This document shows positions 969 through 63,500 of a stretch of 64,000 bases of DNA, piece by piece. Each line of letters begins with the position of its first letter. The first letter of the stretch is position 1. The notes beneath the pieces are model-generated. The model was not told the origin of the DNA. It did no database searches and was given only the letters and a program-made list of their open reading frames with translations. The stretch comes from Cladocopium goreaui. Lineage: Eukaryota > Sar > Dinophyceae > Suessiales > Symbiodiniaceae. The translations under genes and the position numbers were made by a program. The stretch covers positions 185,414-249,413 of the forward strand of contig CAMXCT020000127.1 of assembly GCA_947184155.2 (NCBI GenBank), given 5' to 3'.

Positions 969-3900
969 TCACCACTGAGTTTTCTCAAACTTCGCACTTC
1001 CAACATGTTTTGCAAACTTTCTCAAAGAGTCCTTGTCCATGAACTCATGTCTCGCTTCCCAAAGCTCGCGCAGCAGGCTAAAATCGAAGTCTTCCCACTT
1101 GCACTCCAAACGCAGTTTCATTTCCACCTGGCTGAAGTCCTCATTGGTAAGCTTGTCAGCTAGATCGTTTTCGGCCCGGGGACGCCATCGCAGCTCCAAC
1201 CGCATCCCCCAACGCATGAGCATGTGCGTCAACTGCATGTTGATCAAGGCCAGTGGAAACTTAGTAGAACTTCCCTTCTGGAGAAGGGCCTCATTCGACT
1301 GGTTGTCTGTGCCTGCTGCCAAGTAAACTGGAACGGTCATTCTTTCTCTCCCTTCTCCATAGTTGAACAAAACAAGTGCCACGGTGGTGGCCAGCAACTC
1401 CGCTGGCGCTGAAGCCCAGCTGCTCTCTCCATCAGGCTTGAACAGGTAGGGCGCCTGTTCGGGCTCCAAACGAAGTGAAAACCAGCGGCCCGTAGCCAGA
1501 TGGTGCCCACCCAAAACGACAACCCCTTGAGCGCACGTCGCATCTGTCCTAAACTGTTCTTCCAGCAAACGGATGGGCCTATGGCATGAATACATAAAAC
1601 TGCAATCTGCAAGTTGCCTGGAAATGAATTTGAGAACCAGGACCACCATGCGCGGTGCCGTGGCGACCGTTCCTTTTGCCAGAGCGGCTGCCCAGCTATA
1701 CAAGGGTGCCAGGTGCGCCTTCAGCCAGACCAGGACTCGGGCAAGGAAAGCGAGTCTCCCAAGGAACTCCCCGAAGCGACGCATGTGCACTGTGTAGCGT
1801 GCTTCTTCCATCTCCTTTATGAAATTCAGCAACCAAAGGCCACGTTTGGCTGTCACTCCCATCTTGCATCGTCCATAGTCCAGCTGAAAACCCACAAACG
1901 TTACTTCTATTCCCCCCTGCGAACTTCGCATACTGGAAAGGGGTGCCCAAAGCCTCATAGGCTGCCAGCATCATCCACAAGGTCAGGAACTTGCGTTCCC
2001 CGAAAACCACAACATGCAAATCATCTACGCAGATGAGCTGGTAGTTGCATTCCGTCCCCATAGCATTGCCCACCAGCCTTCCAACTGTTCCCATGAGCCG
2101 CGTCCACCAATAGGAGGCGCTTGAAACGCCGAAGGTTCCCACCTTGTTGACCCAGATGGTGTCGGAGGCCGAAGAAGCTTTGCAGCAAATGAGAGGGTGA
2201 TCCCTGCTCCGCAATTTCACCAGCCTATGCGCCGACTTGATATCAGCTGAAATGGAAAACCTGGCCTCCCTGGTCTCGGTCACCTCCCGTATGACACCAG
2301 CCGCGTCTTCCGGCCCAGGGTATTGTAATTGGTCTCTGAAAACTATCCTGTTGTTGAGCTGAACATGGTGGGTGGCATCGTGTATGGGACGGATGTCACC
2401 GTTGGGTTTCTCTATGGCCCCCATGGAAGCCACCAGCACTTCCCGGTCAGGGTGTTTTGCTTTCAAGGCCGCAAGCGTGGTCGGATACATCCTCCCCAGC
2501 CTTTCTTCTTCTCTAAATTTGTTCTCCAACTCCTCTGCTACCAGCTCCGCCGACTTATAGTTTTCTGAAAAGGGGATATAGTCCGAATCGTCCAGCTTGC
2601 GGTGTTTCTCCTTTGGTGGAAACACAGCAGGAACCCTCGGCAGCGGTTCATCTAGTCCAACTGGCACGCCCGTTGCAAACGACTCTCTGTCTTGTACCAG
2701 CACCTGGTAGTCAGGGTCCTCCATAACTTCTAGCGTTTGCGCCAAAAGGTGAAGGAAGAAAGGTTGGCCCTCCGTGAGCTCCATGGCGCTAGAGGGGGAT
2801 GGCAAAAGCTGGGCCCATCTCTCCCTAAGTTTCTGCAGCGCACTTTCTGAAAACGGCGAACCCTGCAGCCTCCCCAAAGCCAAGTGAAAAGCTTCCTTCC
2901 TTAGGTCGCCGATCTGCGACACCACAAACTCCTGCAGGAGCTCTTTCAACTTTCGTCCCATCTGTTGTGCCTCCATGCTAAGGTATGCCCCTCTATCCTC
3001 TGGGCGCCAACGGTTTGCAGAGCAAAGACCAAACCCATCAACGAACGGTTTGGATCGTCCGCCCCATTCCACTACCAAAGGCTTTCCTCTATTGCGAGCC
3101 TCTTCTGGCCCTTCTCGAGCTGGATACGCGTCTTCCCCAGCTTCCGGTCTCTGGGTGTTGGTGTCTGAGTCGTCCGGTTGGTCCAAACTATCCGTGGTGA
3201 CTGTAGATGCTGATCCAGCTGCAACTGTAGTGGTTGTAGTTGTCGGCTCAGCCTCTGTAATGGGCCCAGCATGTAGGCCGAGTGAAGAGGTCCTTGCGCG
3301 CCCCACCCGGCTGGCGATGAGCTCGGCCAGGTATTTGCAAAGCGCCGGAGGGTAGGCAGCAGAACCCTCGGTGGCCCACTTTCCGCTGGGTAGTTGGCCC
3401 AAAAGGCGCTTGGCATGCGTGGAGTGTCCACAAAATGTAGGCAAGGGGCCCAGGTACTGTCGTTCTTTGTCGAAAACTGGCCACGTGGCATGTGGTAGGT
3501 CTTGGCAAGGCTTGAGGGTAGAAAGAAACCTGGTTGGCTTGGGCGATGGCGCGTCAAAATGACACTGGAAAATTGCCCAAGTCGTGGCTTTTGTGGCTTG
3601 TTGTAGCTGTTGCATTGTTTCCCACTGCCAAATACTAGCGGGCCATTCACCATGGCATGCCCCTAAATCTTCGGGATGTTCGATCAGAAAATCTGCATTG
3701 CATTGAAAGCATTTGTGTGCAGTGGCGATGGTCTGGTCCACCAAATAGTTGTGATCTTGTGCCAGCTGTAAATTTGAACCTGTAAGCCAAGGAAAGCCTC
3801 TAGGCCAGTTAAAATTGCGTAGTGGCCGTGGGCCAGGCGAGGTTTTCCAGTTGAAACGGACCCTGCTAAAGGTGTTGCAGGGTGGTGACATAACTACCAC

Positions 3901-4128
3901 GTCCCATAATCCAGCTTCTAATTTCTGAAAGATTTTGTCCCAAAGTTGACTGTTTAACAGATCATCTGAGGCCTGTCGTTCCACATCGACCTCCGTAACA
4001 TGCAAAGAAAATTCGTGCTCCAAGCCAAACTCCTGGAGGTAGTGCTTGACGTCTGCCTTGCGAGGCTTCCCACAAAACAAGTACAGCACCCGCAATGTGG
4101 GCTTGCTAGTGGGTGCTGCTGTAGGCTG
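969..4128 (-). CDS. Element 1 Pol: methyltransferase-like, RT and RNase H (one frameshift)
   Basis: Reading starts directly after the Gag UGA. The N-terminal domain resembles cytosine-C5 methyltransferases: LYLFCGK (motif I-like), SPPCNTFSR about 70 residues in (PC, motif IV-like) and IEHPED (motif VI-like). RT follows, with ADIKSAH, GVSSASYWW and CVDDLHV near residue 690. RNase H includes TDNQSNEA and ends near LRWRPRAENDLADKL. The frame breaks at a run of six C (1912-1917, G on the coding strand); with five, VGFQLDYG continues in frame to 969. No AUG precedes motif I: the first Met in this frame is next to SPPC. Translation from Gag by readthrough is therefore likely. Methylation activity is not shown; the fold assignment rests on motifs. 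Confidence 0.8.
1912..1917 (-). other. Frameshift at a six-base homopolymer in Pol
   Basis: Upstream RT sequence (..YAKFAGG) is in one frame and downstream sequence (IEVTFVGFQLDYG) in another. Removing one base of this run restores the reading. It may be a mutation, an assembly or sequencing error, or, less likely, a recoding site. Confidence 0.7.
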
Positions 4129-4131
4129 TCA
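4093..4131 (-). promoter_or_regulatory. Candidate UGA readthrough site between Gag and Pol (element 1)
   Basis: The Gag stop is UGA followed by CAG CCU. Eleven further sense codons in the same frame lead into methyltransferase motif I. No AUG lies between the stop and motif I. The same arrangement occurs at 48878-48910 and 60484-60546. Confidence 0.6.
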
Positions 4132-5403
4132 CTCAGTTTTGCTGTTGCCCTTTGGAAGATCTTTGCAACGATCATGTTCCCGGGCGGCGTGTTCACCATA
4201 ACAGCCTTTGATACGACAGATGTGTAGTCTGCCGCACCGACCCGGACAGCCTTGGCTGTTAAAGGCAAAGCATATTTCACGTCCGTCCGGAGAGTGGGTG
4301 ACAAGTTGGTGGTCCCCGTGTTTTCCTTTCGATTTGCCTGATGCTTTTCCTTTTCCTTTGTCAAATTTGCCTCGCACTTTGCCAAACCCCTTCGACTTGC
4401 CCTTCTTGCTGTCGTAGGTGTTGTTGAAGGAGCGCTGACCGCCATGTCGATTTGGGTCATGGTTGGTCAGAGCCAAAGGGGTGGTAAAATATGACTCCTT
4501 GAGCTCAGCATCCTTTGTAACGGCCTCCAAGGCCTCTGCCAATGTCTTCTCCCCTTTGTTGACCAGTTTGAAGGCTTCTCGCCGCAAACGGTGCTCAAAT
4601 TGCAGCACCAGGGCAAAGGGTGGACGCAGTGGCTGCTGCTGTCCATCAATAGGCACTTTGATACCATGTACCTTTTCTCCAAGCACGAACTCCACAAAGC
4701 GATTGAAGTCCTCCATCTTCAAACCTGCCAAGAAGTGCTTTGACTTGAATTTTGAGGACATACACAGCCATGTTGTGGCCTCCAATTTCATCAACCTCCG
4801 GTATTCTTCTGTGCTTTCTGGAAGCCGGCCTTTGGATTTTGTTTTGGTGATCCTCACATGGCCCGTGCTGTCCAGTGATGTTTGCAGAGCTGATGTGTTG
4901 CGGTCAGCTTTGGAAGACACTTCATCCAGGCTTGCTGCTGTACATTCTCCATTCTCGCATTCTTCAACCTTCAAAGCAAGGTATTCCGCACTGGGTGTCT
5001 CGTGGTCGGAGAGGTGGCCTAGGGCCTTCTCGACTGCCTTAAGCATTGCCAATCTCTCACTGTGCTGAAGGTGACGGGGGACCCCAAGAACCTTGCTTTC
5101 GGCTTGGATCTCTTTCTCTTTGGTGTATAGCTCTTTTCCTGCATTCCAAGCTGCCACCACCTGCGCTACTTGTGCCCGCAGCGCTGGGTCTCTTGCTGGG
5201 TCCAAGTTGAAGTCGGCTTGGACCGCAGTCCGCACATCTGCGGAACTTTCTCCTATGGCTGTAAAGACCCTCAGCGACTTGTAGTGCTGGGCCATCTCAT
5301 ACTGAAGCGCTAACGGGATTTCGGCATCATCCCAAACATACTGCAGATCAGAAGTGACGTTGCTTCGCAAGTATTCCCTGCGATCATCATCCGTCACTGC
5401 CAT
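4129..5403 (-). CDS. Element 1 Gag with Cys/His zinc finger
   Basis: I chose the ATG at 5403 (MAVTDDDRREYL), because the 48 codons upstream read as a hydrophobic stretch unlike the rest. The protein is mostly helical and charged, with a basic Lys/Gly-rich stretch (KGKSKG repeats) about 350 residues in. It ends in a Cys/His cluster (CFAFNSQGC..C..HIC..C..H) like a CCCH finger instead of the CCHC knuckle of LTR-element Gags. It ends at UGA (4131-4129), and Pol continues in the same frame. Its role would be binding and packaging element RNA; this is inferred from position and composition. Confidence 0.65.
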   Translation of the reverse strand: MAVTDDDRREYLRSNVTSDLQYVWDDAEIPLALQYEMAQHYKSLRVFTAIGESSADVRTAVQADFNLDPARDPALRAQVAQVVAAWNAGKELYTKEKEIQAESKVLGVPRHLQHSERLAMLKAVEKALGHLSDHETPSAEYLALKVEECENGECTAASLDEVSSKADRNTSALQTSLDSTGHVRITKTKSKGRLPESTEEYRRLMKLEATTWLCMSSKFKSKHFLAGLKMEDFNRFVEFVLGEKVHGIKVPIDGQQQPLRPPFALVLQFEHRLRREAFKLVNKGEKTLAEALEAVTKDAELKESYFTTPLALTNHDPNRHGGQRSFNNTYDSKKGKSKGFGKVRGKFDKGKGKASGKSKGKHGDHQLVTHSPDGREICFAFNSQGCPGRCGRLHICRIKGCYGEHAAREHDRCKDLPKGNSKTE

Positions 5404-5994: not shown

Positions 5995-7752
5995 CTAAAT
6001 CACCGGATGCCATTCTGATGCCTCTCCAGCCTCGGCCTCTTCAGCCTCTGCCTCGTCTCCGGATGTATCCGTAGAGGATGAATCGCCTGAATCGCTCGAT
6101 GCATCATGGTCAGTTGTCATGCGACCCAACTCTTCTGAAATCTTACGTTGACAAATCTTGCAAATAGCATCATATGCTGCATCCTGAACATTGTCAACAT
6201 CAGTGCTGTCGATGCATCTGTCTGAGCGCACCGGACACTTGCCATGCATGTGTAATCGTCTAAACCCTGTCCTCCTCGACGTCGTGATAAAATAACCCAA
6301 ATGAATTGGGTTCTCACCTGCCTCTCGTTGCACGGCCTCCATGACCTGTTGTTTCTCCTGAACGTCTACCTGTTCAACATCCGAATCAAACGTGTCGTAA
6401 ACCTCACCAGCATTGGCTCTCTTGTAGTCATGCGTGTGGCGTCTCCTGACTCTCTGCCCTACCAGCTCATGCTTGTCTGCAAAATGCATGATATCTTCCA
6501 ACAATTCTGACTCATCCAACGCTCGGGCTCCCAACACAATTGAGTCCCTGACCAAATGCTGAACCTCTTCCACCACTTGACGTGATGTATGCAAGTATGC
6601 ATTGCTTCCTGTTCGTCCTATCGACCATCTCCCAAGGAAGTCCCGCTTAGTCTTGTCCACTCCTAACGATGCTGCCGCCTGTGTCAGGAAATGACGTGGG
6701 CTATGGCCTCCAGTGGTCTTCGTCCTGGCCATCCTGAGTGTCAGGCCACGGTTGCTAAGCCTGACAGATTCCGGCATGACATTCTGCAAATCATCAACCC
6801 TCATTGCAGCCCAAGTTGAAACCAACATACACCATGCAATTAGCCGCAGACAGAATTCATGATCCATCTCAATGACAAACAGCTCAAGCGCCAACAATAT
6901 TGCTGTCGTGTATGGTTTTGCAGCCTTTGGGAACGTGTTCGTGGCCAGTTCCTGTTTCCAGCTCTCAATATGTGCCTTCCACAATGGATCCCGTGACAAC
7001 TGTTTACCATCCGGAATCCGTCCAGCCTGTTCTAAAACAACCAGTGCAGCCTGAAATTCTGAAACGAAACTGAATGTAACCCCATTTTGTATATGTTCCT
7101 CAATGTAGTGTATCAAGACGTCCAGGCCGCCCGGCCAGGTCTTACCTGAATAGGCTACCAGCCATGTGCGAAAACGGTTCCATGACCTGTATCTGTTCCT
7201 CAAGGTCTTTGACCGCCTTGCACCAAACAGTCGTAGCCAAGCCTTGTTCGGATCCTGCAATGCCTCTATCTGGAGACTCACCGGCAGAACGGCCTCCTGT
7301 AAAATGCCTGCAAGCTCTAATGCATATCTGTCTCTCTCTTGTTGTTCTTTGGCCGCTCTCGTCTCCGGTCCTTCCCCAGTTGAAGACCTACGCTGGGAAC
7401 GCTTCACAGTGTCCAACATAAAACGGGGATCCTCCTTCATGATTTGCTCAAAAGTTTCTTGTATGGTGCCTACTGTGTCCCGTTTGGGATGTGCACAAAA
7501 CTCGAAACTCAGTTCTCGGTCAAGGATACGCTGCCTCTTGACCTGTGGTCCATACTTGGTATGCCATGCAACCAGTCCCTCAACACCCAACTGTCCAAAG
7601 TCAGCCCACTCCGTCTCTGTCAAAATACCTTGCAAAAGGTCTTGGGCACCAGCCGCATCATCAAACGAATACCACAGGTATTTCAGATCACCAAAGATTT
7701 CCTTCAGCCTTTGCCTAAAGCTCTGTTTAACTGGAATATCATTCCAATCCAT
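5995..7752 (-). CDS. Element 1 tyrosine recombinase
   Basis: This 585-residue protein would catalyse integration of the element's circular DNA. The catalytic set is legible: Arg318 in AAMRVDDLQ, His350 and Arg353 in HSPRHFL, Trp376 in LGRW, and Tyr386 in SNAYLH, giving R..HxxR..W..Y. The segment before Arg318 (about residues 130-300) is a helical core-binding domain. The C-terminal tail has paired cysteines (CKICQ), then an acidic Ser/Asp/Glu-rich end. The frame is open throughout and starts with ATG 34 bases inside the terminal repeat. It is the only recombinase in the window with a canonical HxxR. Confidence 0.85.
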   Translation of the reverse strand: MDWNDIPVKQSFRQRLKEIFGDLKYLWYSFDDAAGAQDLLQGILTETEWADFGQLGVEGLVAWHTKYGPQVKRQRILDRELSFEFCAHPKRDTVGTIQETFEQIMKEDPRFMLDTVKRSQRRSSTGEGPETRAAKEQQERDRYALELAGILQEAVLPVSLQIEALQDPNKAWLRLFGARRSKTLRNRYRSWNRFRTWLVAYSGKTWPGGLDVLIHYIEEHIQNGVTFSFVSEFQAALVVLEQAGRIPDGKQLSRDPLWKAHIESWKQELATNTFPKAAKPYTTAILLALELFVIEMDHEFCLRLIAWCMLVSTWAAMRVDDLQNVMPESVRLSNRGLTLRMARTKTTGGHSPRHFLTQAAASLGVDKTKRDFLGRWSIGRTGSNAYLHTSRQVVEEVQHLVRDSIVLGARALDESELLEDIMHFADKHELVGQRVRRRHTHDYKRANAGEVYDTFDSDVEQVDVQEKQQVMEAVQREAGENPIHLGYFITTSRRTGFRRLHMHGKCPVRSDRCIDSTDVDNVQDAAYDAICKICQRKISEELGRMTTDHDASSDSGDSSSTDTSGDEAEAEEAEAGEASEWHPVI

Positions 7753-7785
7753 GCCATACGTCGAAGATTGCAGCGCGTCCCTGAC

Positions 7786-8219
7786 TGTTCAAAATTTTTC
7801 CAGCCCTTGAACCTTCAAGCAACACGTAACAAATTGGAGTGATCAGCACAACTCTTCGAATGACATCAGACTGAATCTCCCTCAGTGTTTTTTTTACAAC
7901 AGTGGGGAATCAAAAGGTAAACAGAAACCGAATAACGTGTGAACAGATTTGCGACTGAAGCAACCAACTGAAACGGTTCACACTCACACGAGTGTTCTCC
8001 TCCTTTTTTTTTAAACGCTGAACCTGGCAGCTCCACCTATTACACCTTTAAACTCAAACCCAGAAGAAAGCAACGCGGAGGAGAGGACACGCCAGCAGGA
8101 GGCAGCGAGCAGAGCAGAGGGAGCAAGCAGGAATCTAGAGACCGAGGGGCGAGATCCCCACCCAAGCCCCCCAGAGGGCCAAGCGACTTCAAACAGTCCC
8201 CACGGTGAACCGTGAAGGC
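7786..8219 (-). repeat. 434-bp terminal direct repeat, 5' copy of element 1
   Basis: Partner of 169-602. Its outer edge is the insertion point in the copia Gag. On the coding strand it precedes the recombinase, so it probably carries the element promoter. Confidence 0.9.
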
Positions 8220-36407: not shown

Positions 36408-36412
36408 GATCA

Positions 36413-37643: not shown

Positions 37644-37662
37644 TCAACCACCTATGCACGGA

Positions 37663-37811
37663 AGGCGTCCCTGTGGAGTAGGAGTAGTTGGTAGGGCGTC
37701 GTTCTTGACGACGCGGACAGACTACCGGTGGTGGTTCGATTCCCCGCTGGTCCACAGGTAAGCCTCAAGTGTGGTGACCAGTCGAAAGACAATGGCGCCG
37801 GCCACAAAAAA
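37663..37811 (+). mobile_element. tRNA-derived SINE, subfamily 1
   Basis: Close copy of 19930-20075, with an extra gtagga in the A-box region. Perfect 19-base target duplication tcaaccacctatgcacgga at 37644-37662 and 37812-37830. Confidence 0.95.
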
Positions 37812-37830
37812 TCAACCACCTATGCACGGA

Positions 37831-38870: not shown

Positions 38871-38871
38871 C

Positions 38872-39150: not shown

Positions 39151-39152
39151 CC

Positions 39153-44569: not shown

Positions 44570-44685
44570 TATACATGTACTTGTTTCATGTTTGTTTTAC
44601 GGGGCTTCATTTTGTTTCGTGGAAACCATTTTGGCTCTAAGACTTACATTTGCGTTTTTTGCTGGGGCATTTATTTGAAAAAAAA
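44570..44685 (+). repeat. Split repeat A1 of element 3
   Basis: Matches 52361-52474, from tatacatgtacttgtttcat to tttatttgaaaaaa. Contains CCATTTTGGCTC followed by TAAG (about 44629-44644), close to the 3' part of the dinoflagellate spliced leader. Confidence 0.9.
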
Positions 44686-45122
44686 CAGAAACAACAAAGA
44701 ACTACAAACATTACACAGCAGGCTTAACTTTCCAACCAGTGCCTTGGTTTTTACTGTAGGTGATTGTCATGTCAGTTTTCATGACCAATTTTCAATTTGC
44801 ATTCTCCTAGTCATCTCTCCCGGCTGGCGTCGGGCAATGCTGGTTCGAAATCCTCGGCGTGGCATCATCGGGCCCTCAGAGCGTTTTTACCAGGTTTTTG
44901 CAGCACCTCAACATCGACATCTTTTCACTGGCATTTTGTCATTACTGACTGACTCATCTGGTGCATTTACAGCGGACATTGTGAGTTTTTCATTGTGTTC
45001 AGCATTCTTGCGTTTTTGGACCAGCATTTTCAGAAGGGTAGATACCCCATCAGTGGCCGACGCCCTATCACCGGCAGCATCACCTGCTGCATCATCAGAT
45101 TATTTTCCGGAAGACTGGACTG

Positions 45123-47258
45123 ATGAAATTTGATGACTGGGATTTGATATCGGAAGGCAGTCAGGACACTGATGGGACATTACACGTGTGTGCTCCGTTG
45201 CAGGTTTCTTCATTGCCGACCTCTTCGCGGACCTCTTCAACGGATATCCTGCCAGCAGCTCCAAAGTCCCGACCTTTGCAACGTCCGGACACTCCAGGTA
45301 GACCCAGGATTAGGGCAACGCTTCAGTTGAATTCTCAATGCAATTCTTTGGATTCTGGTATGGATGTTTCACGTGCCATGTTTGTGGATGTTTCACAATT
45401 ACAACACGCTGAACCTTTGCAGCGGCCTACACCGACATCAGTGCCGGTGACCTCGGCTCCAATGCCGACACACCGAACCCCTTTGCCAGCACCTCAGATG
45501 CGGAGTGGTTACAGGCCATCAGATGGGCCACAATTGCGATTGAGCGCATCATCAGATGTAGTGACAGTATCACACATGAAGAGCGACCCAACTAAGTTGC
45601 CCAGTCGTTCAACCAGGGAATTACACCTTCAAACCAGAGGGCCGAAACAACGGCGTTTACTGCAAACATCCAGAGGGAATGTGTGCAGCACTTGTCCAGC
45701 AGTACAATCGATCTGGCCTCAGTTTGTTTCTGCGTTTTTGGGTTTTTCACCGATGCTTCAAGAATTATCCACAAGTGCTCATTTTGATGAACATTGCCAA
45801 CACATTTTGGATGGCTTTGCATCCTCCACCATTTACAGGTACCTGTCAACCTTGATGCAGTTCCATGCAGTTTGCATATCCATGCGTGTATCTCTGGAGG
45901 GCTTGACGGAAATTCAATTTGCAGACATCTTACTGGCGGGACGCTCCAGTGAACCACGTGTCAGCCCCAGCATGTGCATCAAGAGTGTCAGATGGGCGTT
46001 CAAGCAATTTGGCATTCAGTGTTTTCAGGTCTCATTAGGACCCTTGATTTCATCATTTACAAAAGAGCATGTGATTTCAGACCGCAGAGAAGCGCTTCCG
46101 TACAGCTTGCTGATTGTTGTTCAATGGGAACGGCGATTACTTCAGAGTTCAGCAACACAGCACGAGGTTTTAGGCCTGGGCAGTCTTTTACTCATGTTAT
46201 GGAGCGGAATGAGATTCGCTGATTTGCAGCGTACGTATCTCAGCAGCCTGGCGTACGACCTCACCTCGTTGAGGGGGTTATCCTATAGGACCAAGACCTG
46301 TAAGTCAGGCTGTCCTTTCGGATTGCTATGTCGAGGGTTTTTGTCCTCTGGATCGTTCAACTGGGTTTTTCGATACCTGCAAGAGATCGATTCCCTATAC
46401 TCCAAGTTTGGCAGGCAACCGAGTGAGATCGACTTCATTGTCCCAAGCCTGGACCAATTGGGTCATGATGAATGCCCGGGACCCATGACTTATCCAGAAG
46501 CTTTACATCACTGCAGATATTTTTTATCCTTACCATGGAGGAAATCCCCCATCAACACCAAAATCACTGCACAACATTACACAGTGCACGGTTTAAAAAG
46601 CACACTGCTGTCCTTTGCCAACCAACTGCAATTGGCACCGGAGCTGAGACGACTTCAAGGGAAACATAAAGATCCCCTGCAGAGTACACGCCTGTACTCA
46701 CGAGATGATGTCAATGGTGCTCTGCAGCTGCAAGAGGCAATTATTACAGCAGTTCAGAAAGGGTGGCGACCTCACACCCCATTGGGAAGAGGGGGACAGA
46801 TTCCTATCCAAGAACAGGAATTCACTTTGGAGAAGTTCAAAAAAGATGCAGGTGACCCTCAATGGTCTTTTTTCGCTTTCAACAAACCACCAGTTTTTGA
46901 AGCTGATCATTTTGATCCAGTGGATGCAGAACAGTCCGAGAGTTCCTCATCCTCATCAGACTCCAGCGAGTCTTCATCGTCTCCCTCTGTCAAAGCGACC
47001 AAGAGGGACCCCAAAACAATTCCAGATTCATTTGATGAAATTGCAATGGGCGTTTTTCGGCAAACGTGGCATGTGGTTATGAATCCACAAACGGAGGAAG
47101 GCTTGCCTCTGGATTTCAAATGGACCACAGCATGTGGCCGGCGTTTCCATCCTGACAGCTTTTCAATTCGTGATGAATTGGCGTTGACTGCAGGGCATGT
47201 GTTGTGCGCACATCCAGGATGCAAGAAGGGATGGATCTCAGTTGGCATTTTTCAATAG
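45123..47258 (+). CDS. Element 3 tyrosine recombinase
   Basis: 711 residues. The first 200 are a Ser/Thr/Pro-rich, low-complexity region. A core-binding domain (about 215-330) follows, then the catalytic domain with Arg364 in WSGMRFADLQ, His489-x-x-Lys492 in VHGLKSTLLSF, and Tyr525 in RLYSRDDV. Lys replaces the second Arg of the usual HxxR. After GWRPHTPLGRGG comes an acidic Ser-rich stretch, then a Cys/His tail (CGRRFHP..CAHPGCKKGW). It should carry out integration of the circular intermediate. The ATG overlaps the end of an upstream frame (44555-45133) by 11 bases, which may be a leader ORF. Confidence 0.85.
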   Translation: MKFDDWDLISEGSQDTDGTLHVCAPLQVSSLPTSSRTSSTDILPAAPKSRPLQRPDTPGRPRIRATLQLNSQCNSLDSGMDVSRAMFVDVSQLQHAEPLQRPTPTSVPVTSAPMPTHRTPLPAPQMRSGYRPSDGPQLRLSASSDVVTVSHMKSDPTKLPSRSTRELHLQTRGPKQRRLLQTSRGNVCSTCPAVQSIWPQFVSAFLGFSPMLQELSTSAHFDEHCQHILDGFASSTIYRYLSTLMQFHAVCISMRVSLEGLTEIQFADILLAGRSSEPRVSPSMCIKSVRWAFKQFGIQCFQVSLGPLISSFTKEHVISDRREALPYSLLIVVQWERRLLQSSATQHEVLGLGSLLLMLWSGMRFADLQRTYLSSLAYDLTSLRGLSYRTKTCKSGCPFGLLCRGFLSSGSFNWVFRYLQEIDSLYSKFGRQPSEIDFIVPSLDQLGHDECPGPMTYPEALHHCRYFLSLPWRKSPINTKITAQHYTVHGLKSTLLSFANQLQLAPELRRLQGKHKDPLQSTRLYSRDDVNGALQLQEAIITAVQKGWRPHTPLGRGGQIPIQEQEFTLEKFKKDAGDPQWSFFAFNKPPVFEADHFDPVDAEQSESSSSSSDSSESSSSPSVKATKRDPKTIPDSFDEIAMGVFRQTWHVVMNPQTEEGLPLDFKWTTACGRRFHPDSFSIRDELALTAGHVLCAHPGCKKGWISVGIFQ

Positions 47259-47675: not shown

Positions 47676-48880
47676 ATGGATTCCAAACTGGAGGATATCC
47701 TGCAAACAGCAGGGGTGGACCCAGCAATAGCCAATCAGTTGGTTGCTGATGGTTGGACACTTGCTACATTTGCATGTTGTGCGTTGGACAGCAAGACTTT
47801 GACAAATCAATAGATGAGATGATGGCTGGACGCCCTGCCCTATCCATTTTGGAGCGATCTCAATTGAGAGCTGCGTTCAAGGCTTGTTCAACTCAGGTAT
47901 CTAAGGAGACTAAGGCAACACAAGGGGATGCCGCATCAATTGCACAACCAGCCACCTCGACCAGCTCCTGGAGCGAATCGTTTGCACCTAAGTTGGATAG
48001 CCAGGTCATTCAGCAGCTCAAACAACAGTTCTTGAAGAATTACCCAAGTGAAATTCTGGATGGAGCCACAATGCCATCCACCAGGCTATTGTCGCTTGTT
48101 TACCATCAGCTCCAGAAAACTCATTGGGCATGGATCCCATGGAAATACCGCATGAGTGTGGAGAAAGCTGAAGAACTGCAAGCTCAAAGGTCCTCTAAAC
48201 AACCAAAGATGGAAGGACTCGCATTGCATTCGTTGTTGCTGGACGAGCCGCCAGCGCTGGAAGTCTCCAACTCAGGGATGGGTCTGAATGCTATCAGGAC
48301 TCTCATGGACTTACACAATGTGGCTATTGCAATGTGTAGGGGTGCACACTTAGCAAATCTCAAGCAGTATTCCCATCGTTTTCTTCATTATTTGACTCAG
48401 AAGGTGGATTCAGAGACAGGTTTGCGCACAGCCAATGTGATTGAAGCTCAAGCAGCAGATCGTCAGATTTGGGGCATCATGGCTGAACTCATGAATGATC
48501 GTGATTGGAACATGGATGATGCCCTTCATGAATTGACGCATGTACGTCAGGATTTGGCGGGATTGCTTCAGCTCCGACCCAAGATGCCCAAACCGCAATC
48601 TTGGCCCTCGTCATCACCATTCAGTTCGACCAGCTCTCAGAAGGGCAAAGGGAAGCAAACCCAATCCAAAGGAAAAGGAAAACAAAAAGGGAAACCACAA
48701 TGGGTGACTGAAACGCGCAATCCAGACGGATCCACAAAAGCCCTGTGCATGCGTTTCCAACTTGGCAAGTGCAAGCTATCGGACTGCAAATTCAGTCACC
48801 AATGTGCATACCCAACGGCAGCGGGACATGCATGCGGAGGAAGTCATGGCGCACTGGAGCATAAACAAATTCCTCACTGA
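47676..48880 (+). CDS. Element 3 Gag with CCCH finger (N-terminal frameshift)
   Basis: The ATG at 47676 opens MDSKLEDILQTAGVDPAIAN.., which aligns with element 2 Gag. Near 47795 reading must shift by -1 to join DFDKSIDEMMAGRPALS.. and the main frame to 48880. The body has WSESFAPKLDSQVIQQL, LLDEPPALEV and MDDALHELTHVRQDL, then a Lys-rich stretch. The finger is CMRFQLGKCKLSDCKFSH (C-x7-C-x4-C-x3-H) with a second Cys/His cluster after it. It stops at UGA, with Pol in the same frame. An internal AUG could supply a shorter Gag without the shift. Confidence 0.7.
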
Positions 48881-48910
48881 CTCCCCTCGCAAGACAGCAG
48901 GCCTATCAAC
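48878..48910 (+). promoter_or_regulatory. Candidate UGA readthrough site between Gag and Pol (element 3)
   Basis: UGA CUC CCC, then open codons in the Gag frame to the first Pol AUG at 48911. UGA followed by CU is a known leaky context. Confidence 0.6.
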
Positions 48911-51900
48911 ATGGAAGTTGACATGCAGGAAGCACCCAAAGCAGCAGTTTCAAGTTCATCAGGCCTCACCGTTTCATCTCAGATGCAGACAGCATTGGCT
49001 CAGGGTACTGGCAATCCAGACCCACCATCGCCCAGTTTCACACCACCTCCGGAGGAGAAGGTTTCACAAGTGCCGCATTTTGCGGCGGCAAGTGCATTAG
49101 GCAATGTTAAAGCTGTGGGAACAAATCGCATTTTTCTAGATATCTGTGCAGGGGCTACTAGACCATTATCTCGAGCATGCTTACGCAGAGGCAAATGTGT
49201 TTTATCCTTTGACATTTTGATTCAATCAGCGATGAATTTACTTGATGATACTGAATATGAACAACTGTTGAGACTGTGCGCCAGTGGCTCAGTCGCTTAT
49301 GCTGGTGCTAGCCCTAGCTGTGGACAGTACTCCCGACTCAAACTGCGCAAAGGTGGCCCTCCTCCAGTGAGAACACCGGACCACCTGAATGGAGTGCCGG
49401 GCATTTCACCAGCGGACCTTTTAAAGGTACAAGAGAGTCATACAATGCTTTCCAGATGTCTTCAGTGTTTAATTTTGGTATTTCAGTCAGGAGGACACGT
49501 ACATCTCGAGCAACCTCCCTCAGCAATGTCATGGTTGGAGCCAGAAGTCCAAACATTTCTAATTCTTATTGGAGCATTTTGCATTAATCTTCCAGCATGC
49601 GCTTTTGGTTGGAGCATTCACAAAGCTTGGATGTTTGCTACAAGTTTCTCAGACCTGCAGAAACTTGGATCCATCTGTCGACACTCGCAATCAGACCATG
49701 AATCCATTGCAGGACGACACAATGCAGCAGGCGATTTTTTGAGCAAGGATACAGCCTGTTATCCCGAATCCTTGGCGGAAGCATTTGCAGACATTGTTGC
49801 TCCGCTCTTGTCTGACCACCCGGCGGATTTAGCTTGGCCTTTTCCAAATGCAATTTTACCCACAAAAGGGTATGACGACTTTCCCAAAAGTTCCGAAGAT
49901 GGTGGTGGCCTTTTCTCCCTGCCGGACTGGAGTCAAAGCAATAGGCAGGCCACGGATTCTCTTCATAATTTGCGTGTTAAGTGGCGGCAAATGATTTTGG
50001 ATCAAAGGTTGGATCGTCAATTATTGGCATATGTTGCTCAGGGACCATCAGCGGACCCACCATTTTCTGAGGAGACACTGCAACCATTTATGAATGAGCT
50101 TAATCATTTTATTCGAATGCATGGACTGACTCCGGACTGGTCTATTCGTGAACACCAACCCATGAGACTGGGTATTTTGGCAGCCTTGAGCACGATCATG
50201 GGTGACAAGGACACCACATTATTTGGTGAACTACAAGCTGGAGTCAGCACTGGATTTAACAATGATATCCCTTTATCACAATGCTTTCCTCGCAATGATC
50301 GTCCAATCGATACTACAACACTGTTGTCCGCACACATGTGCAACTGGGCCTCCGCTGAAAGCGACTTGGAACTCACTCGATCACTGGTTGAAGAAGAAAT
50401 CTCGCGTGGATGGGTTTACAAATTTGATGGAGATCTCGCTGATGCACAGGCGGCATTTCCTGTTGGTGTTGCACTCGGCAAACTTGGCGTCGCTACCAGC
50501 GATTCCAGACCACCGCGCCTAGTTGTAGACAATAGTATATGCGGCCTCAACTCGAGGTGCCGTATACCTGAGCGGTCAACGCTGCCGACCGCAAAGGATG
50601 TGCTGCGTAGCTACCCTCTTAGAGGTTGCACCGAGGACTTCATGGCCATGTCTCTTGACATTAAATCAGCACATAAATGTGTAGTTATTCGAGAAAGTGA
50701 AAGAGGATTGGTCGGATTTACGCTGGAAGGGGCCTTGTATTTTTACAAGGTAGCTCCGTTCGGAGCATCTTTCTCGGCAGCGTGGTGGAGTCGAGTAGGT
50801 GGATACCTACTCCGCCTGATGCACCATACAATATGGATCCCACACTGTGGACTTGTATTCGTTGATGACTACTTGTTCTACCAAATCAAATCGATGATGC
50901 CGGTCACTGCGGCATTACTTTGTGTCTTGGTACTATGTTGTCGCATTCCCATTTCTTGGAAAAAACTGGAATTAGCATCAACGATATCATGGATCGGCTG
51001 GCGTTTCCATTTTTCTTCAGGCTTTGTGGAACTTCCCATGAATAAACTGGAAAAAATTCGACGTTATTTGCAACAACTATCCCAATCTTCTCGCACCACG
51101 AGAAAAGACCTGGAGAAATTCATCGGTATTATGATGTGGGTCACACAACTTTTCCCATACATGCGCATTTGGCTGCATTATTTTTACAAGGATTTGTATG
51201 CCATTCCAGCTACGCATTTCAGCATTGACAGAGACAATTGGACAGCTGTTGCGCCATGCCTCAATGATGATTTGATTTTTCATACTCGTCCATCAAACAC
51301 TGCAATTCCTGTTCAAGGGAAGCTGATTTCTGTACGACATCAACCAGTGGAATCCCTGGATGACCTCTCCAAACTTCGTCTTTCTGATCGACGTATTTGG
51401 ATGCGCATTCGTGATCCGAACTCCAATAAACGAACTTTATCCTCGGATACCATTCGAATGATATCACTGTATCAATCCTGGTTTTTACACTTGCAACCAT
51501 TGCGACCCATGCGGCCCAAGAATTTTTGGATAGGAGAAGTCGCAGCTGATGCATGTGCCGCTGGATCTTCTACTCAAATCGGAGGTTTCATTCGAGCACC
51601 GAACGGTGAATGTCGCTGGTTTTCTGAAAAATATTCTCATGAGGATTTTATGGACCTCCACATCGATCTGGATCCCGATCTCCAGAAATCCATTACCTGT
51701 ATGGAAACACTTGCACAACTGGGAATTTTGCATTTGGCCGCAAGGCATTTCCATGCCACCAGGATGCCGATCAAATTATCATCCTGGAGTGACAATACTG
51801 GTGCAGAAGCTTCAACCAATAAACTGTTTTGCACCAGCAAGCCCCTTTGCTATTTTGTGGAAAGAATGTGTATTTTTTCAGCACTCTCAGGCATAGAGAT

Positions 51901-52099
51901 GGATGTACACCATGTCCCTGGTCATGCAAATGAGGAAGCAGACGCATTATCGCGTATGAATGTCGAAATCGAATGTCCCACAGGTTTCACATTGTCTGAC
52001 AGGATTCGTTTGCCTTTGTCAGAACTTTGGATGGATAGCCCATCTCCGCGCTTAGTTCCTATCGACACTAAAATTCCCTGGAAGTTACCAACTCCTTGA
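48881..52099 (+). CDS. Element 3 Pol: methyltransferase-like, RT and RNase H
   Basis: Open from the Gag UGA; first AUG at 48911 (numbering from it, 1062 residues). The methyltransferase-like domain has FLDICAGATRPLS (about 75), ASPSCGQYSRLK with Cys137, and HLEQPPSAMSW (about 197). A linker follows to about 450. RT has LDIKSAHKCVV, APFGASFSAAWW and FVDDYLF (Asp652/653). RNase H has ADACAAGSSTQIGG, WSDNTGAEA and VHHVPGHANEEADALSR. Motif IV reads SPSC, where C5 methyltransferases have PC, so activity is doubtful. The product would copy element RNA into DNA in a virus-like particle. Confidence 0.85.
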   Translation, partial: LPSQDSRPINMEVDMQEAPKAAVSSSSGLTVSSQMQTALAQGTGNPDPPSPSFTPPPEEKVSQVPHFAAASALGNVKAVGTNRIFLDICAGATRPLSRACLRRGKCVLSFDILIQSAMNLLDDTEYEQLLRLCASGSVAYAGASPSCGQYSRLKLRKGGPPPVRTPDHLNGVPGISPADLLKVQESHTMLSRCLQCLILVFQSGGHVHLEQPPSAMSWLEPEVQTFLILIGAFCINLPACAFGWSIHKAWMFATSFSDLQKLGSICRHSQSDHESIAGRHNAAGDFLSKDTACYPESLAEAFADIVAPLLSDHPADLAWPFPNAILPTKGYDDFPKSSEDGGGLFSLPDWSQSNRQATDSLHNLRVKWRQMILDQRLDRQLLAYVAQGPSADPPFSEETLQPFMNELNHFIRMHGLTPDWSIREHQPMRLGILAALSTIMGDKDTTLFGELQAGVSTGFNNDIPLSQCFPRNDRPIDTTTLLSAHMCNWASAESDLELTRSLVEEEISRGWVYKFDGDLADAQAAFPVGVALGKLGVATSDSRPPRLVVDNSICGLNSRCRIPERSTLPTAKDVLRSYPLRGCTEDFMAMSLDIKSAHKCVVIRESERGLVGFTLEGALYFYKVAPFGASFSAAWWSRVGGYLLRLMHHTIWIPHCGLVFVDDYLFYQIKSMMPVTAALLCVLVLCCRIPISWKKLELASTISWIGWRFHFSSGFVELPMNKLEKIRRYLQQLSQSSRTTRKDLEKFIGIMMWVTQLFPYMRIWLHYFYKDLYAIPATHFSIDRDNWTAVAPCLNDDLIFHTRPSNTAIPVQGKLISVRHQPVESLDDLSKLRLSDRRIWMRIRDPNSNKRTLSSDTIRMISLYQSWFLHLQPLRPMRPKNFWIGEVAADACAAGSSTQIGGFIRAPNGECRWFSEKYSHEDFMDLHIDLDPDLQKSITCMETLAQLGILHLAARHFHATRMPIKLSSWSDNTGAEASTNKLFCTSKPLCYFVERMCIFSALSGIEMDVHHVPGHANEEADALSRMNVEIECPTGFTLSDRIRLPLSELWMDSPSPRLVPIDTKIPWKLPTP

Positions 52100-52177: not shown

Positions 52178-52360
52178 TGGGTGACAAATATCATCAAGGG
52201 AAATAGATCCGAACAACAGTTTGGATCTTCCAATCCAACATGGATCAATTATTCCAGCAAGAGAAAAGAATAATATCAATGTGCGAGTGTCTGCAATTTT
52301 AAGTTATAATTATATGCTTTTGTAAATTATATAGAAAGCAAATGTAAGTCTTAGTAGAAC
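52178..52360 (+). repeat. Split repeat B1 of element 3
   Basis: 183 bases, identical to 52655-52837. Its end, gcaaatgtaagtcttag, is the exact reverse complement of ctaagacttacatttgc inside repeat A (52430-52446). Confidence 0.95.
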
Positions 52361-52474
52361 TATACATGTACTTGTTTCATGTTTGTTTTACGGGGCTTCA
52401 TTTTGTTTCGTGGAAACCATTTTGGCTCTAAGACTTACATTTGCGTTTTTTGCTGGGGCATTTATTTGAAAAAA
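52361..52474 (+). repeat. Split repeat A2 of element 3
   Basis: Matches A1 (44570-44685), differing in the final A-run length. Together with B1 it keeps the likely circle junction. Confidence 0.9.
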
Positions 52475-52837: not shown

Positions 52838-52840
52838 GTA

Positions 52841-58873: not shown

Positions 58874-59276
58874 TAGCGAGACCTGGAGCGAGAAAAATAG
58901 CGCTGGGGATTTACCAGCGGTGAAGTTTTTTTAAATCTGTATTCAACTTGAAGTGGTATATGTGAATTGCAGGAACTTGCAACACACCACGTGATTTGTA
59001 CCATTTTGTGTGCATTGGCTCACCAGGAGGATTTCTCAAGCGGAATAGCTTGGACAATTGACAGAGCTCAGGTGCATGTAGACACATGACATGTGATTGC
59101 AGCTTGATTATTTCTTTTGATTCAACTGTTTAATTGCGGAAGCCAAGTAGGAGAAGCTGATTTGAAACGACAAACGAAACGTTGTCATTGCCCTTGTTTT
59201 GCACTTGGTCTATTCTCGAGACAGTGAACCTTTCTGACATTTCAGTTTGTGTTCTGCGCCATTTTGGCGTTGAGCA
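58874..59276. other. Element 4 spacer between recombinase and Gag
   Basis: No gene supported. Just before the Gag ATG it reads gcgccattttggcgttgagc, which shares 11 bases with the dinoflagellate spliced leader; this may be chance. Confidence 0.4.
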
Positions 59277-60486
59277 TGGCCTCAATGGAGTCAGTTCCGA
59301 GCTTTAGAGCGCGAGCTGCAGACATTGGCATGAGAGACGAACTGATTGAACGACTTGTGGTGGCTGGAGTTGATACTTTTGGAAAGCTGGCTTATGTTTG
59401 CAGTGTTAATCCGACGGCAGGTGATGATGGACCACTTAAGGAAGCCCTGGGCCGCTTGTTAGCTGATGGAGACCCTTTGACACCGCAGGACATGATCTTC
59501 ATGAGGCGCCTGTGGTTCGAGTCCTACACACTGACAGTGACTGAATTGCAAAACAAAATGCAGAAGAATCCCAGTGACACACCCAAATCAATACCATTGG
59601 CAGAGAGGTTAGTCCGAATTGATGAGCAGCGTGATCGTTTGAGAGGCTTAGTTTATGACCAGTTTCTTGAGCCGGCTCACTCTCTTACAGACAAAATTCA
59701 GGCGATGTTGGAAGATGGTGTTGTGACTTATTTGGCACCAGAAAAATGCATTTCACGTCATGATGAGATTCAAAGCAACAAAACCGAGCAGCAGCTGTCC
59801 TTTGATGCACAGGGAAATGTTAAGGTGTCGAAGGCGGAGTAACCCTTAGCTGTGATGCCACGGGTGAATTGAGGCTGCGCCAGTGCCTTACTCGCAAAGC
59901 TCTGGCGTTCGATCAAATCAAACTGTGCTCCTTTGATGTGATGGAAACATGGCACAACGCAATGGTACAGGCTATCATGCGCAAACCTCCTGCAGGACAC
60001 AAGTACGTCACTGTGCAACAAATCATGGCTGCAGACAAGGAGTTGTGGAGCTATTTGTCTCAACATACACGTGGCAAGCTCAAGACGGCTGTGGGACAAC
60101 CTCCAGCCCTGGACTCAGAGTTGAAGGTGTTGATGACTTCACCCACAGTGTTGTGCTACATGACCCCACTGCCTGGGCAATCACCAAAGCCGGAACCACC
60201 CAAACCGGTGGCACCAAAACCCAGCTCACCCAAAGGTGATTCCAATGATTCGACTAGGCCACAGGGAACAAAGAGGAAACTTGAAGGTGCGACAACGGTC
60301 AAGGAGCTGTTACAAAACCTGCCAGCTAATTGCACGTCCAAGACTGAGCAAAACAAGTTCATCTGCTTGCACTACAACAATGGGACATGCAAGAGACAGA
60401 AAGCTTCTTCGTGTAATATGGGTGTGCACATGTGCTACTACAAGGGCTGTGGAAAGAAGCGACCGTACATTGAGTGCGGACACTGA
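59277..60486 (+). CDS. Element 4 Gag with Cys/His finger (one frameshift)
   Basis: ATG at 59277 (MASMESVPSFRARAADIGM). The N-terminal domain runs to KVSKAE (59842). A frame change near 59840 joins ELRLRQCLTRKALAFDQ. After a Pro/Lys-rich linker comes a short segment ATTVKELLQNLP and a finger, CLHYNNGTCKRQKASSCNMGVH (C-x7-C-x6-C-x4-H), followed by CYYKGCGKK. It stops at UGA in the Pol frame. The architecture parallels Gag of elements 1 and 3, though the sequence is far diverged. Confidence 0.65.
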
Positions 60487-60546
60487 CAAAAGGAAATACA
60501 GCCAGGAGGTCCAGATGCTGACCCATCGAACGATGTTGCAGTGTTT
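60484..60546 (+). promoter_or_regulatory. Candidate UGA readthrough site between Gag and Pol (element 4)
   Basis: UGA CAA AAG, then an open stretch of 20 codons in the same frame to the AUG of MELCAGS. Confidence 0.6.
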
Positions 60547-63500
60547 ATGGAGCTCTGCGCTGGCAGTGCAGTACTATCGTCAGAGGCCGCAAAAAGAGGG
60601 TTTCAAACGTTTGCAGTGGACCATGAATTAAATAGGTTTTCACCCAAAGCAAAGATTTTCCAGCTGGATTTGTCGAAGACAGAATCTGAACAGCTGCTAT
60701 CAGACATGTATCACACCATGAAGCCGCAGTGGACGCACATGGGATTGCCGTGTGGGACGGCATCAAGGGCGAGAGAGAAACCCGTCAGCAACAAGCTGAC
60801 TGCTAAAGGGGCACCACAACCAAGACCTTTGAGGGATCAACACCACTTAATGGGCCTGGCGAACTTGTCGCAAGCAGAGCAACGCAGAGTGGAAGGTGCA
60901 AACAAGGTGTATCAAGCTGCAGAAGGGATCCTTTTTATTATTTTCATGCTGGGGCTATGGGTGTCGATCGAAAACCCTGAGAGATCATGGTTATGGGCTA
61001 TTTTGGCCTTCTTGGTGAAACGGCGCAACAATGCTGATTACACGCAATGGTATTTCCATTTGGCTGACACGACCTTTGATGCATGTCAGCATGGCAGCAA
61101 TTTTGCAAAGACTACCAGACTGAAAGGTACTCCGGGTATTTTTGAGCACCTGGGTGGCCAATGCGATGGCTCACACACCCATGCAAACTGGAAGGTCCAA
61201 AGGTTGGGACCTCACTGGATTTTCAATACGGCAGCTGAAGCTGAATATCCGCGATTGCTTGCGGAACGAATGGTGGCGGCAGTAGCGGCCAAGTTGCCTC
61301 AACACCTTCTTCAACAAACCATCCGTCGCCTGCGTTTGGATCTTTTGCAACAAGCTGATAAACAACATAAGTTGGGCGAACAACTCATACCTGAATACAG
61401 CAATGTGGCGTTCATGGACGAGCTGCCGCTTACTGGGTCCTTCAAGGTATTGGCACAACCTTTCAACCGCACTGGGGGAGACAACGACAAAGGCTGTGCA
61501 GCCGGGGGTAGCAATGAGAGTGACCTCTACAAAATTGGGTTTTATTTTTCACCGGAAGAGCACTTTGACAGGGCCATACATCTCAGGCACCCTGCACTAC
61601 AGTTTAATATTGTTCCCGATGCTTTGAGAAGAAATTTGTTCAGGCTGTGCACCATGGGGACCCATGCGATAGCGCAAGAAAGGATTGCGGTTTTGAAGGA
61701 GGTGATGAAACTCAAATTGGCGCTGACGTCAGAAGAGCAGAAATTGCGGGCTGGCATGGAGGCCCATGTGAACACCGTCACTAAGGACAAAGCGTTGGTT
61801 TTGTGGAGGAGGCTGCTGATGGAAACCCAGTTCCCGGACATGAATGTTTGCACCTTTATGGAACAAGGGGTACCTTTGACTGGACAGGAGGCAGAGTCTC
61901 CCCTATACTTCAAGAAATATGCCCCTGCAGTGATGACGGTTGAACAGTTGGATCACCAGGCCGTTTGGAAGCGCAGGGCTATGATGGGGAAAACAATTAC
62001 TGCAGAGGAAACTGAACAGGAGCGAGACCTCATAAAAGAGAGTCAGGAAGAAGTCGAAGCCGGCTTTTTGGAGGGGCCTTTCACTGAAGACCAACTGAAC
62101 TGCAAACTGGGCACCGACAACTGGAGCTTGACCCGACGATTTTGTTTATACCAAGGGGAAGAGAGAAAGATCCGAGTTATTGACAACTACAAGGATTCTG
62201 GAGTGAATGCCGCTTTCTCCTCATCCTCATACTTGGCGCTGCAGGACACTGACTTTATCGTGGGGTTTTTGCGTTTTGTGATGGTGGTGCTTGCAAGGCG
62301 AGATCAAGTGGTAGTACAACTTAGCAATGGTGAGGTGTTGGTCGGAGCTTGGCATCCTACGATGAGTGCAGGACCGGCCTGGGTTGGAAGATGCATTGAT
62401 CTCAGCAAAGCCTACAAGCAAGTGGCGATACACAGACAATCGTTGCGCCATGGTGTTCTGGGGTTTAGTACCCGTGAGGGTGGATGGCGTATGTACACAA
62501 CATGTTCATTGCCGTTTGGCGCCTCGGCTTCGGTATATTCTTTCAACAAGATCAGCCGAGGAATTTGGCACTTACTGGTTCACAAATTTGGACTCCTCAC
62601 CAGCGTCTTTTATGATGACTATCCGGTTTTTGAAGTACAACCCTTAGCTGCTTTGACGTCAAAAATAGTTGACGCCTTTCTGAACGTTTTAGGCTGGAGG
62701 CATGCTGTGCAAGGCAAGAAGGCTGTAGATTTTTGCAGCCAACCGGTTGCTTTGGGGGTACAATTCAACTTGGAAAATATCAGGACTGGTGACCTCGTGG
62801 TCCAGAACAAACCTGGCCGAATCGAAAGGATTGTTGAAATGATTAATTTGGTGAAGGAAGGTGAGGGGAAAACAAAGTCCCTTGTCGCGTCGTTGGCTGG
62901 GCTGATGAACTTCGCTGGAGGTTTTGTACTTGGCCACCATTTCAAGCTTGGATCCCATGCCCTGAACGCCTGGGCGTACAACCACAGTGTGTCACAGGCA
63001 GATGTCAGACAGGTCTGCGACTATCTGCTAACAGTTGCCAAAGAGGTACAGCCCAAGAGGATACGCCTACATGACTCAGACCTCCCGTGGATCATTTACA
63101 CGGACGGGGCCTATGAAGATGGCAAAGGCACCTGGGGCGCTCTGGTTCACGACCCTTTGTCTGGCCAGAGACTCATCTTTGCAGGTGAGGTGCCGGCAGT
63201 GTTGATCTCTTACTGGACAGCAACAGTTGGTGAGCAATTAATTTGTGAAATCGAATTGTTTGCTTACATATGTGTAAGGTGGCACTTACGGAGAGAACTG
63301 AATAATCGGTATGGGATTGTGTTCATTGACAACGAGTCCAGCAGAATGACTCTGATTAAGAGGAACTCTCCTTCCCATGCAATGTTCTTGATGGTGTCCT
63401 TACTGAGCCTACTGGACGTGGTGTTACCTTGTAGCGCTTGGTGCGAGCGGGTACCGAGCGCTTCTAACCCTGCTGATTTGCCGTCACGTGGGAAGTCAGC

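Follow-up and report, generated by a model that had tools for sequence, protein, structure and literature searches.

This study asked how Pol is made in three retroelements of a dinoflagellate genome in which Gag and Pol lie in one reading frame, separated by a single stop codon. The elements, E1, E3, and E4, occur in a window of 64 kb (the whole stretch of DNA analyzed, G000:C127:185414-249413), for which a first-pass annotation had proposed that a conserved UGA-C sets the ratio of Gag to Gag-Pol by readthrough. The comparisons given below favor that reading, and the UGA-C at the Gag-Pol boundary is judged, on sequence evidence, to be probably a programmed readthrough site (probability about 0.86).

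Element Architecture and Junctions in the Window

The order of genes on one strand was the same in all three elements: a recombinase-like ORF, a Gag-like ORF with a Cys/His-rich end, a TGA, and Pol. The features are as follows.

5995..7788, minus strand: E1 recombinase-like ORF, 5' of Gag (motif seen by eye)
4132..5403, minus strand: E1 Gag, taken to start at the in-frame MAVTDDD AUG (the analyst's choice of start codon), with a Cys/His-rich end
4129..4131, minus strand: E1 Gag stop, UGA-C with CAG as the next codon; 52 of 53 junctions of the E1 family have UGA and 49 of 53 UGA-C
4083..4119, minus strand: E1 predicted RNA hairpin, beginning 9 nt past the UGA (from folding; subfamily mean z -3.6)
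1696..4128, minus strand: E1 Pol, methyltransferase-like N-terminal part and then an RT region, open in the Gag frame
44570..44683, plus strand: E3 repeat A1 (A2 at 52361-52474, 100%)
45042..47258, plus strand: E3 recombinase-like ORF, 5' of Gag (HGLK...LYSRD by eye)
47750..48877, plus strand: main part of E3 Gag, a frameshifted copy with its N-terminal part just upstream in another frame
48878..48880, plus strand: E3 Gag stop, UGA-C with CTC as the next codon and CAC as the preceding one; 28 of 28 E3 junctions have both UGA-C and CAC
48881..52099, plus strand: E3 Pol, 1072 codons, own stop UGA followed by A (RVT_1 E 0.0014)
52178..52377, plus strand: E3 repeat B1 (B2 at 52655-52854, 96%)
59228..60483, plus strand: E4 Gag, in two frames in the window copy (59228-59842 and 59824-60483)
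60484..60486, plus strand: E4 Gag stop, UGA-C with CAA as the next codon and CAC as the preceding one; in the E4 family UGA and CAC in 27 of 27 junctions, UGA-C in 26 of 27
60487..63630, plus strand: E4 Pol, 1047 codons, own stop UGA followed by A (RVT_1 E 7.1e-05)

Read from the window sequence, the junctions are GAG TGA CAG in E1 (minus strand, 4131-4129), CAC TGA CTC in E3, and CAC TGA CAA in E4. Gag and Pol share a frame with a lone TGA between them in each case, which confirms the initial description of three elements with a UGA stop, C as the next base, and Pol in the frame of Gag. The Gag-side frames measure 476 (E1), 376 (E3), and 220 (E4) codons from stop to stop, and the Pol frames 810, 1072, and 1047 codons. 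It had also been stated that no AUG precedes methyltransferase motif I in E1 Pol, and this was borne out in the window copy. All three copies carry lesions, a frameshift being present in E1 Pol, E3 Gag, and E4 Gag; that of E1 moves the remainder of Pol to 969-1970, and in relatives of E1 the Pol frame stays open for about 1040-1060 codons. A further element, E2 (about 10.5-17 kb, minus strand), is related to E3 (Pol identity 41%) but decayed; its Gag finger and junction are gone, and it gives no information on the stop.

The assignment of protein functions drew on profile searches and on motifs. The Pfam RVT_1 matches of E3 and E4 Pol lie below the gathering score, none was found in the window E1 Pol, and two of seven E1 relatives gave one (best E 0.0008). 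The name methyltransferase-like reflects a resemblance of motifs: this part of Pol was unmatched in Pfam, PHROGs, and the sequences of solved structures, PF00145 was found in none of the three window Pols and none of 18 E1 N-terminal parts, and a profile search of solved structures returned only DNMT2-like matches at E 0.86-0.87 over 26 positions. The recombinase motif in the E1 ORF was judged by eye, as was HGLK...LYSRD, common to E3 and E2, and the E3 and E4 ORFs had no Pfam match at E 0.5. Structure models were unusable (pLDDT 40 for the methyltransferase-like part, 37 for a recombinase-like ORF).

In E3 alone, the repeats follow the order A1-ORFs-B1-A2-B2, that is, split direct repeats; for E1 no B repeats were seen in the window, and for E4 no repeats at all. 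The recombinase-like ORFs are set apart from Gag by a gap (5995-7788, 45042-47258, and 57672-58727 in E1, E3, and E4). E1 is flanked by repeats at 169-602 and 7786-8219, identical over 187 and 216 nt and 7617 bases apart, which suggests a fairly recent insertion. The window also holds a degenerate copia-like element in several frames (35607-41599), with zinc knuckle, protease-like, and RT-like stretches recognized by eye.

Related Junctions across the Assembly

Searches of the assembly (1.166 Gb, 6202 contigs) with the three window Pols gave at least 78, at least 46, and at least 44 matches. The loci used were 28 of 30 in a first set, followed by 24 of another 25 for E1, 26 of 40 for E4, and 27 of 42 for E3; these added places had to reach the junction and were picked by match score, sequence unseen, avoiding near-duplicates. 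L001 (identical to the window E1), L009 (its match begins at Pol residue 200), and E2 were left out. With the window copies included, 108 junctions were scored (53 E1, 28 E3, and 27 E4), all from one genome. The Pols of E4 and E1 are 21% and 26% identical, respectively, to that of E3, and a tblastn search of IMG/VR found zero relatives of the elements.

The scoring of many related junctions, which the first-pass annotation had named as one check of its proposal, upheld it within this genome: Pol lies in the Gag frame in 103 of 108 junctions, the stop is UGA in 107, and UGA is followed by C in 103. Two of the outcomes named as contrary to it were not encountered to any extent, UAA or UAG being the Gag stop in 0 of 108 junctions and Pol lying out of frame only in five copies with lesions. 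In those five (L008, L025, L033, L061, and L073), copy-specific lesions lie nearby and the junction was placed via the Gag end; in the other 103, walking upward along the Pol frame from the match reached the stop of Gag. The sole junction with no TGA, L025, reads TGG through a 1-nt insertion that breaks the frame. The claim of a conserved UGA-C stood in 103 of 108 junctions, but the C at +4 is not absolute, since UGA-A occurs in L026, L028, and L159, which form one E1 subclade, and in the E4 copy L051, all four with a long open Pol.

The copies are related, so counts by cluster are the fairer measure. When the 86 lesion-free junctions among the first 91 (the five lesion copies being excluded) were grouped at 70% amino-acid identity, TGA-C was the commonest tetranucleotide in 18 of the 20 clusters; grouping at 60% gave 11 of 12. 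Gag was a single frame of more than 400 codons in 10 of 12 E3 and E4 relatives examined, and intact as a single frame in four of six E4 relatives.

Sequence Context of the Stop Codon

The stop at the end of Pol in the same elements served as a control (n = 64, without L008, L025, and the short-frame E1 copies L021 and L027). It was UGA in 45 cases, UAA in 13, and UAG in six, and UGA-C in only four. The original remark that chance would rarely give such agreement is well founded: UGA-C was present at 87 of 91 Gag junctions versus 4 of 64 Pol stops (Fisher p = 6e-33). Over the full set, stop and context are kept beyond what ordinary terminators have, with UGA in 107 and UGA-C in 103 of 108 junctions versus 45 and 4 of 64.

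These Pol stops also bear on whether UGA has been reassigned in the host to tryptophan or selenocysteine. A parasitic dinoflagellate, Amoebophrya sp. Kv, appears to translate stop codons in a context-dependent way (PMC12005148, excerpt), but reassignment here is given a negligible chance, as Pol itself terminates at UGA in 45 of 64 elements, tryptophan is encoded by TGG in E1 Pol frames (766 in 26,741 codons, a weak argument since each frame was followed no further than its first stop), and no Rfam family matched the window at the gathering score.

The conservation of the base after UGA is that of a nucleotide. The following codon may be CAG, CAA, CAT, CTA, CTC, CTT, CGG, CGT, CCA, CCT, or CCG (AAG, AGG, or ATA in the exceptions), so that the residue differs (Q, P, L, R, or H) while the base remains C; the C at +4 is conserved as a base and not via one residue. 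As background, 30.9% of the first codon positions over Pol codons 2-12 are C. The information content is 2 bits at the TGA, 1.59 (E1), 2.00 (E3), and 1.66 (E4) bits at +4, and 1.06, 1.73, and 0.59 bits at +5.

On the 5' side of the stop, conservation in E3 and E4 is at the protein level, with one added feature. The codon before UGA is CAC in 28 of 28 E3 and 27 of 27 E4 junctions (20 of 20 and 16 of 16 when non-redundant), and elsewhere in the final 150 codons of Gag, CAC accounts for 27 of 119 (E3) and 24 of 44 (E4) His codons, so the synonymous choice looks fixed before the UGA. In E1 this codon is GAG or one of several others. In the context of human MDH1, a C at -3, as in CAC, reduced readthrough (PMC12233894, excerpt).

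Removal of the stop from some transcripts by RNA editing or splicing, for example an A-to-I change that makes UGA a Trp codon, would also join Pol to Gag. Nuclear RNA editing of all types is described for Symbiodinium microadriaticum, but the table of the same paper gives stop-codon loss 0 and 1 times in two columns (PMC5357065, excerpt), and neither the C at +4 nor the CAC codon is obviously explained, which leaves this a very improbable account.

Selection, Linkers, and the Start of Pol

Median dN/dS was 0.08, 0.04, and 0.08 at the Gag ends of E1 (its C-terminal 130 codons), E3, and E4 (15, 20, and 10 pairs), 0.26, 0.31, and 0.20 at the Pol starts, and 0.09 over 700 codons of E1 Pol. By these ratios, purifying selection acts on the Gag ends and on Pol. 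The UGA could be regarded as an old nonsense mutation, inherited by all copies and functionless, given that the copies are related and that one UGA-C per family could be fixed by chance. Such an accident is extremely improbable against this selection, against the prevalence of UGA-C in 18 of 20 clusters despite codon turnover in the linkers, and with the lone change to sense being the TGG made by insertion in L025.

The linker from the stop to motif I spans 10-27 codons in 24 E1, 60-83 in 17 E3, and 12-17 in 16 E4 sequences. The other two frames of the linkers hold 115 stops and the Pol frame none, a zero that is partly by construction because the walk halts at the first stop; that first stop upstream of Pol was Gag's own. 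Among close pairs, linker pN/pS was 0.58 (E1, 16 pairs), 0.50 (E3, 19 pairs), and 1.58 (E4, 7 pairs), the E4 linkers thus being without a purifying signal. The view that Pol can hardly start on its own held for E1 and E4, where 22 of 24 and 14 of 16 linkers have no in-frame AUG (36 of 40 together, non-redundant), but did not extend to E3, where 16 of 17 linkers have one, at varying positions.

The dinoflagellate spliced leader, in a sequence matching that of PMC2606063 (excerpt), was found in 172 exact copies in the assembly, and 0 times when reversed, which places the host among the dinoflagellates. Among the matches listed, three elements carry the 22-nt leader about 4.1-4.4 kb upstream of Pol, namely L145 (G000:C2945), L146 (G000:C1756), and L147 (G000:C459); two are E4-like, with identical flanks, and one is E1-like. 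The RNA of such elements may be trans-spliced and the leader carried along. A relic of the leader before the E4 Gag AUG was considered and rejected, as there were 0 matches in the window with up to 3 mismatches allowed.

Alternatively, Pol synthesis could be separate from that of Gag, through a trans-spliced mRNA for Pol alone or through ribosomes that reinitiate once Gag has terminated, the UGA then being an ordinary stop. Dinoflagellates do trans-splice a spliced leader, copies of it lie within some of these elements, most E3 linkers offer an AUG, and the CACTGAC of E3 and E4 resembles a branch point. This idea is nonetheless disfavored by the lack of AUGs before motif I in E1 and E4 and by the conservation of frame; separate synthesis would need neither the Gag frame, nor UGA in preference to UAA or UAG, nor C at +4, and the three element-linked leaders examined sit kilobases upstream of Pol. 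Separate synthesis is, overall, improbable.

Predicted RNA Structure Downstream of the Stop

A fold scan (44-nt segments in 8-nt steps, scored as z) pointed to structure after the stop in E1. In many E1 junctions the predicted stem begins about 4-11 nt past the stop, and its sequence varies among subfamilies; in L015, L017, L018, L020, and L085 the best fold begins earlier or differs. For the segment at +5 nt, the mean z was -3.6 in the subfamily of the window's E1 (6 of 6 below -2), -1.4 in a distant group (5 of 16), and -0.7 in a middle group (1 of 8). It was the lowest segment in the first two, while the middle group was lower at +64 (-1.4). Other low values were -2.5 at -56 in the window's subfamily and, between +40 and +56 in the distant group, about -1. 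Structure after the stop was not found in E3 and E4, where the mean z was +0.2 and 0 of 20 and 0 of 16 were below -2.

Seven E1 sequences picked for one geometry gave pairing in 46 of 49 cells, which fell to 27-47% when the partner was slid along. Changes on both sides occurred in three of seven stem pairs, all of them in L085 and L086, a single lineage; 67 of 500 shuffles reached three doubly changed pairs, and none reached the covariation score. RNAalifold on whole families gave empty or weak structures, with z-scores from column shuffles that are unreliable wherever the shuffled energies came close to zero. Taken together, the folding results are suggestive of a downstream hairpin in E1, strong in the window's subfamily and weaker elsewhere. 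The UGA-A junctions L026, L028, and L159 retain the predicted post-stop hairpin, as in their relatives.

Host Release Factor eRF1

The sole eRF1 N-domain exon found in the assembly (L165, G000:C5555:154778-155041, minus strand) matched the eRF1 chains in solved structures (best E 1.9e-32) and reads GTASCIKS, with TGC as the Cys codon, where the solved chains shown have GTASNIKS. The other three PF03463 matches cover model positions 82-123 only, and one of them, L167, presumably resembles Pelota. A 2008 survey described the NIK part as universal outside ciliates (PMC2613156, excerpt), and Amoebophrya eRF1 has RIKS (PMC12005148, excerpt).

TASCIKS could affect stop recognition in the host. UGA-C might then be intrinsically leaky through the altered eRF1, with three old families exploiting the leak, each tuned differently by CAC before the stop or a hairpin after it, and host genes perhaps doing the same. 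This wider proposal is unlikely, weakened by the report that mutating the Asn of NIKS alters termination at UAA and UAG (PMC12005148, excerpt), not at UGA specifically; UGA nonetheless ends most Pol ORFs in these elements. A link between the eRF1 variant and leaky UGA-C is speculation, but, if true, would tie a change in a host release factor to elements that use UGA-C.

Comparison with Known Systems

The readthrough stop of Sindbis virus is UGA. As at the junctions described here, C lies just after the stop, where it is the Sindbis readthrough signal (PMC2194720, excerpt); Sindbis differs in being an RNA virus with unrelated genes. Gammaretroviruses of the MuLV type also have Gag and Pol in one frame with one stop, and RNA structure a short way downstream, as predicted for E1. 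MuLV, however, combines UAG with a spacer and a pseudoknot (PMC2194720, excerpt), whereas the stop here is UGA-C, a hairpin is predicted for E1 alone, and a recombinase-like ORF takes the place of the DDE integrase.

In-frame stops are also described in retrotransposons. Tca2 of Candida albicans has an in-frame UGA between gag and pol, like these elements, and SIRE1 of soybean an in-frame stop that the source leaves open as lying between gag and pol or between pol and env; both are LTR elements, unlike those studied here, and the excerpt states no rule for C at +4 (PMC2194720). For Tca2, the junction by itself did not lead to readthrough in S. cerevisiae (PMC2194720, excerpt).

The nearest described dinoflagellate element found was SymbioDIRS-Dnmt3 of Symbiodinium, a DIRS-like element. 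Its Pol includes a methyltransferase, its recombinase has an ORF to itself, and its repeats follow the order A-coding-B-A-B (PMC5890265, excerpt), to be set beside the methyltransferase-like Pol, the recombinase-like ORF, and the E3 repeats described here. The available text of that paper mentions gag and frameshift 0 times, and its single passage on a stop codon concerns mutated copies. A Dnmt3 identity is not supported for the present Pols, as PF00145 was not found in them. DIRS, Ngaro, and VIPER/TATE elements are comparable in layout, with ORFs for a Gag-like protein, RT/RH, and a YR and with split repeats, but their YR and RT/RH ORFs are described as overlapping or frameshifted (PMC6681497 and PMC3783388, excerpts), and the recombinase-like ORF here is, unlike theirs, upstream of Gag. 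The words readthrough and read-through occur 0 times in the available text of PMC6681497, PMC3783388, and PMC8547959, and no report of readthrough in YR or dinoflagellate retroelements was seen among titles and abstract openings of the open-licence literature. In-frame gag-pol stops and the UGA-C signal are, then, already known, and their occurrence in a YR or dinoflagellate element is apparently unreported.

Proposed Mechanism and Significance

Under programmed readthrough, most ribosomes would halt at the UGA and release Gag, and a minority would accept a near-cognate tRNA at the UGA and go on translating without a change of frame, producing a Gag-Pol fusion that would link the methyltransferase-like/RT polyprotein to Gag. 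The common core signal would be UGA with C at +4, a C in this position being described as crucial for the binding of near-cognate tRNA (PMC12233894, excerpt). To this core, E3 and E4 would add the fixed CAC codon before the stop, and most members of the E1 family a stem-loop about 4-11 nt beyond it. Here we infer the occurrence and rate of readthrough, the Gag:Gag-Pol ratio, the inserted amino acid, the roles of the CAC codon and the hairpin, and any role in particles.

Readthrough is a supported interpretation of the UGA-C junctions, in that it would explain the use of UGA over UAA and UAG, the C at +4, the frame kept across varied linkers, and the absence of AUGs from most E1 and E4 linkers; no rival accounts for stop, +4 C, frame, and missing AUGs together. 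The counterpoints are the four UGA-A junctions, the lack of a structure after the stop in E3 and E4, the AUG in 16 of 17 E3 linkers, and the relatedness of the copies, all of them from a single genome. Also against it are the weak hairpin signal of the middle E1 group, the low z values of other segments, the covariation confined to one lineage, the reduced readthrough with C at -3 in human MDH1, the negative result for Tca2 in yeast, and the pN/pS of 1.58 in E4 linkers.

How the level of Pol relative to Gag is set in YR retroelements is not settled in the excerpts of the literature examined. The proposed four-base signal would be common to three families, with Pols only 21-26% identical where measured, and with helper features that differ among them. 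It may offer a compact and directly testable recoding signal of dinoflagellates, in which the upstream codon of some families and the predicted downstream hairpin of another would form a natural comparison.
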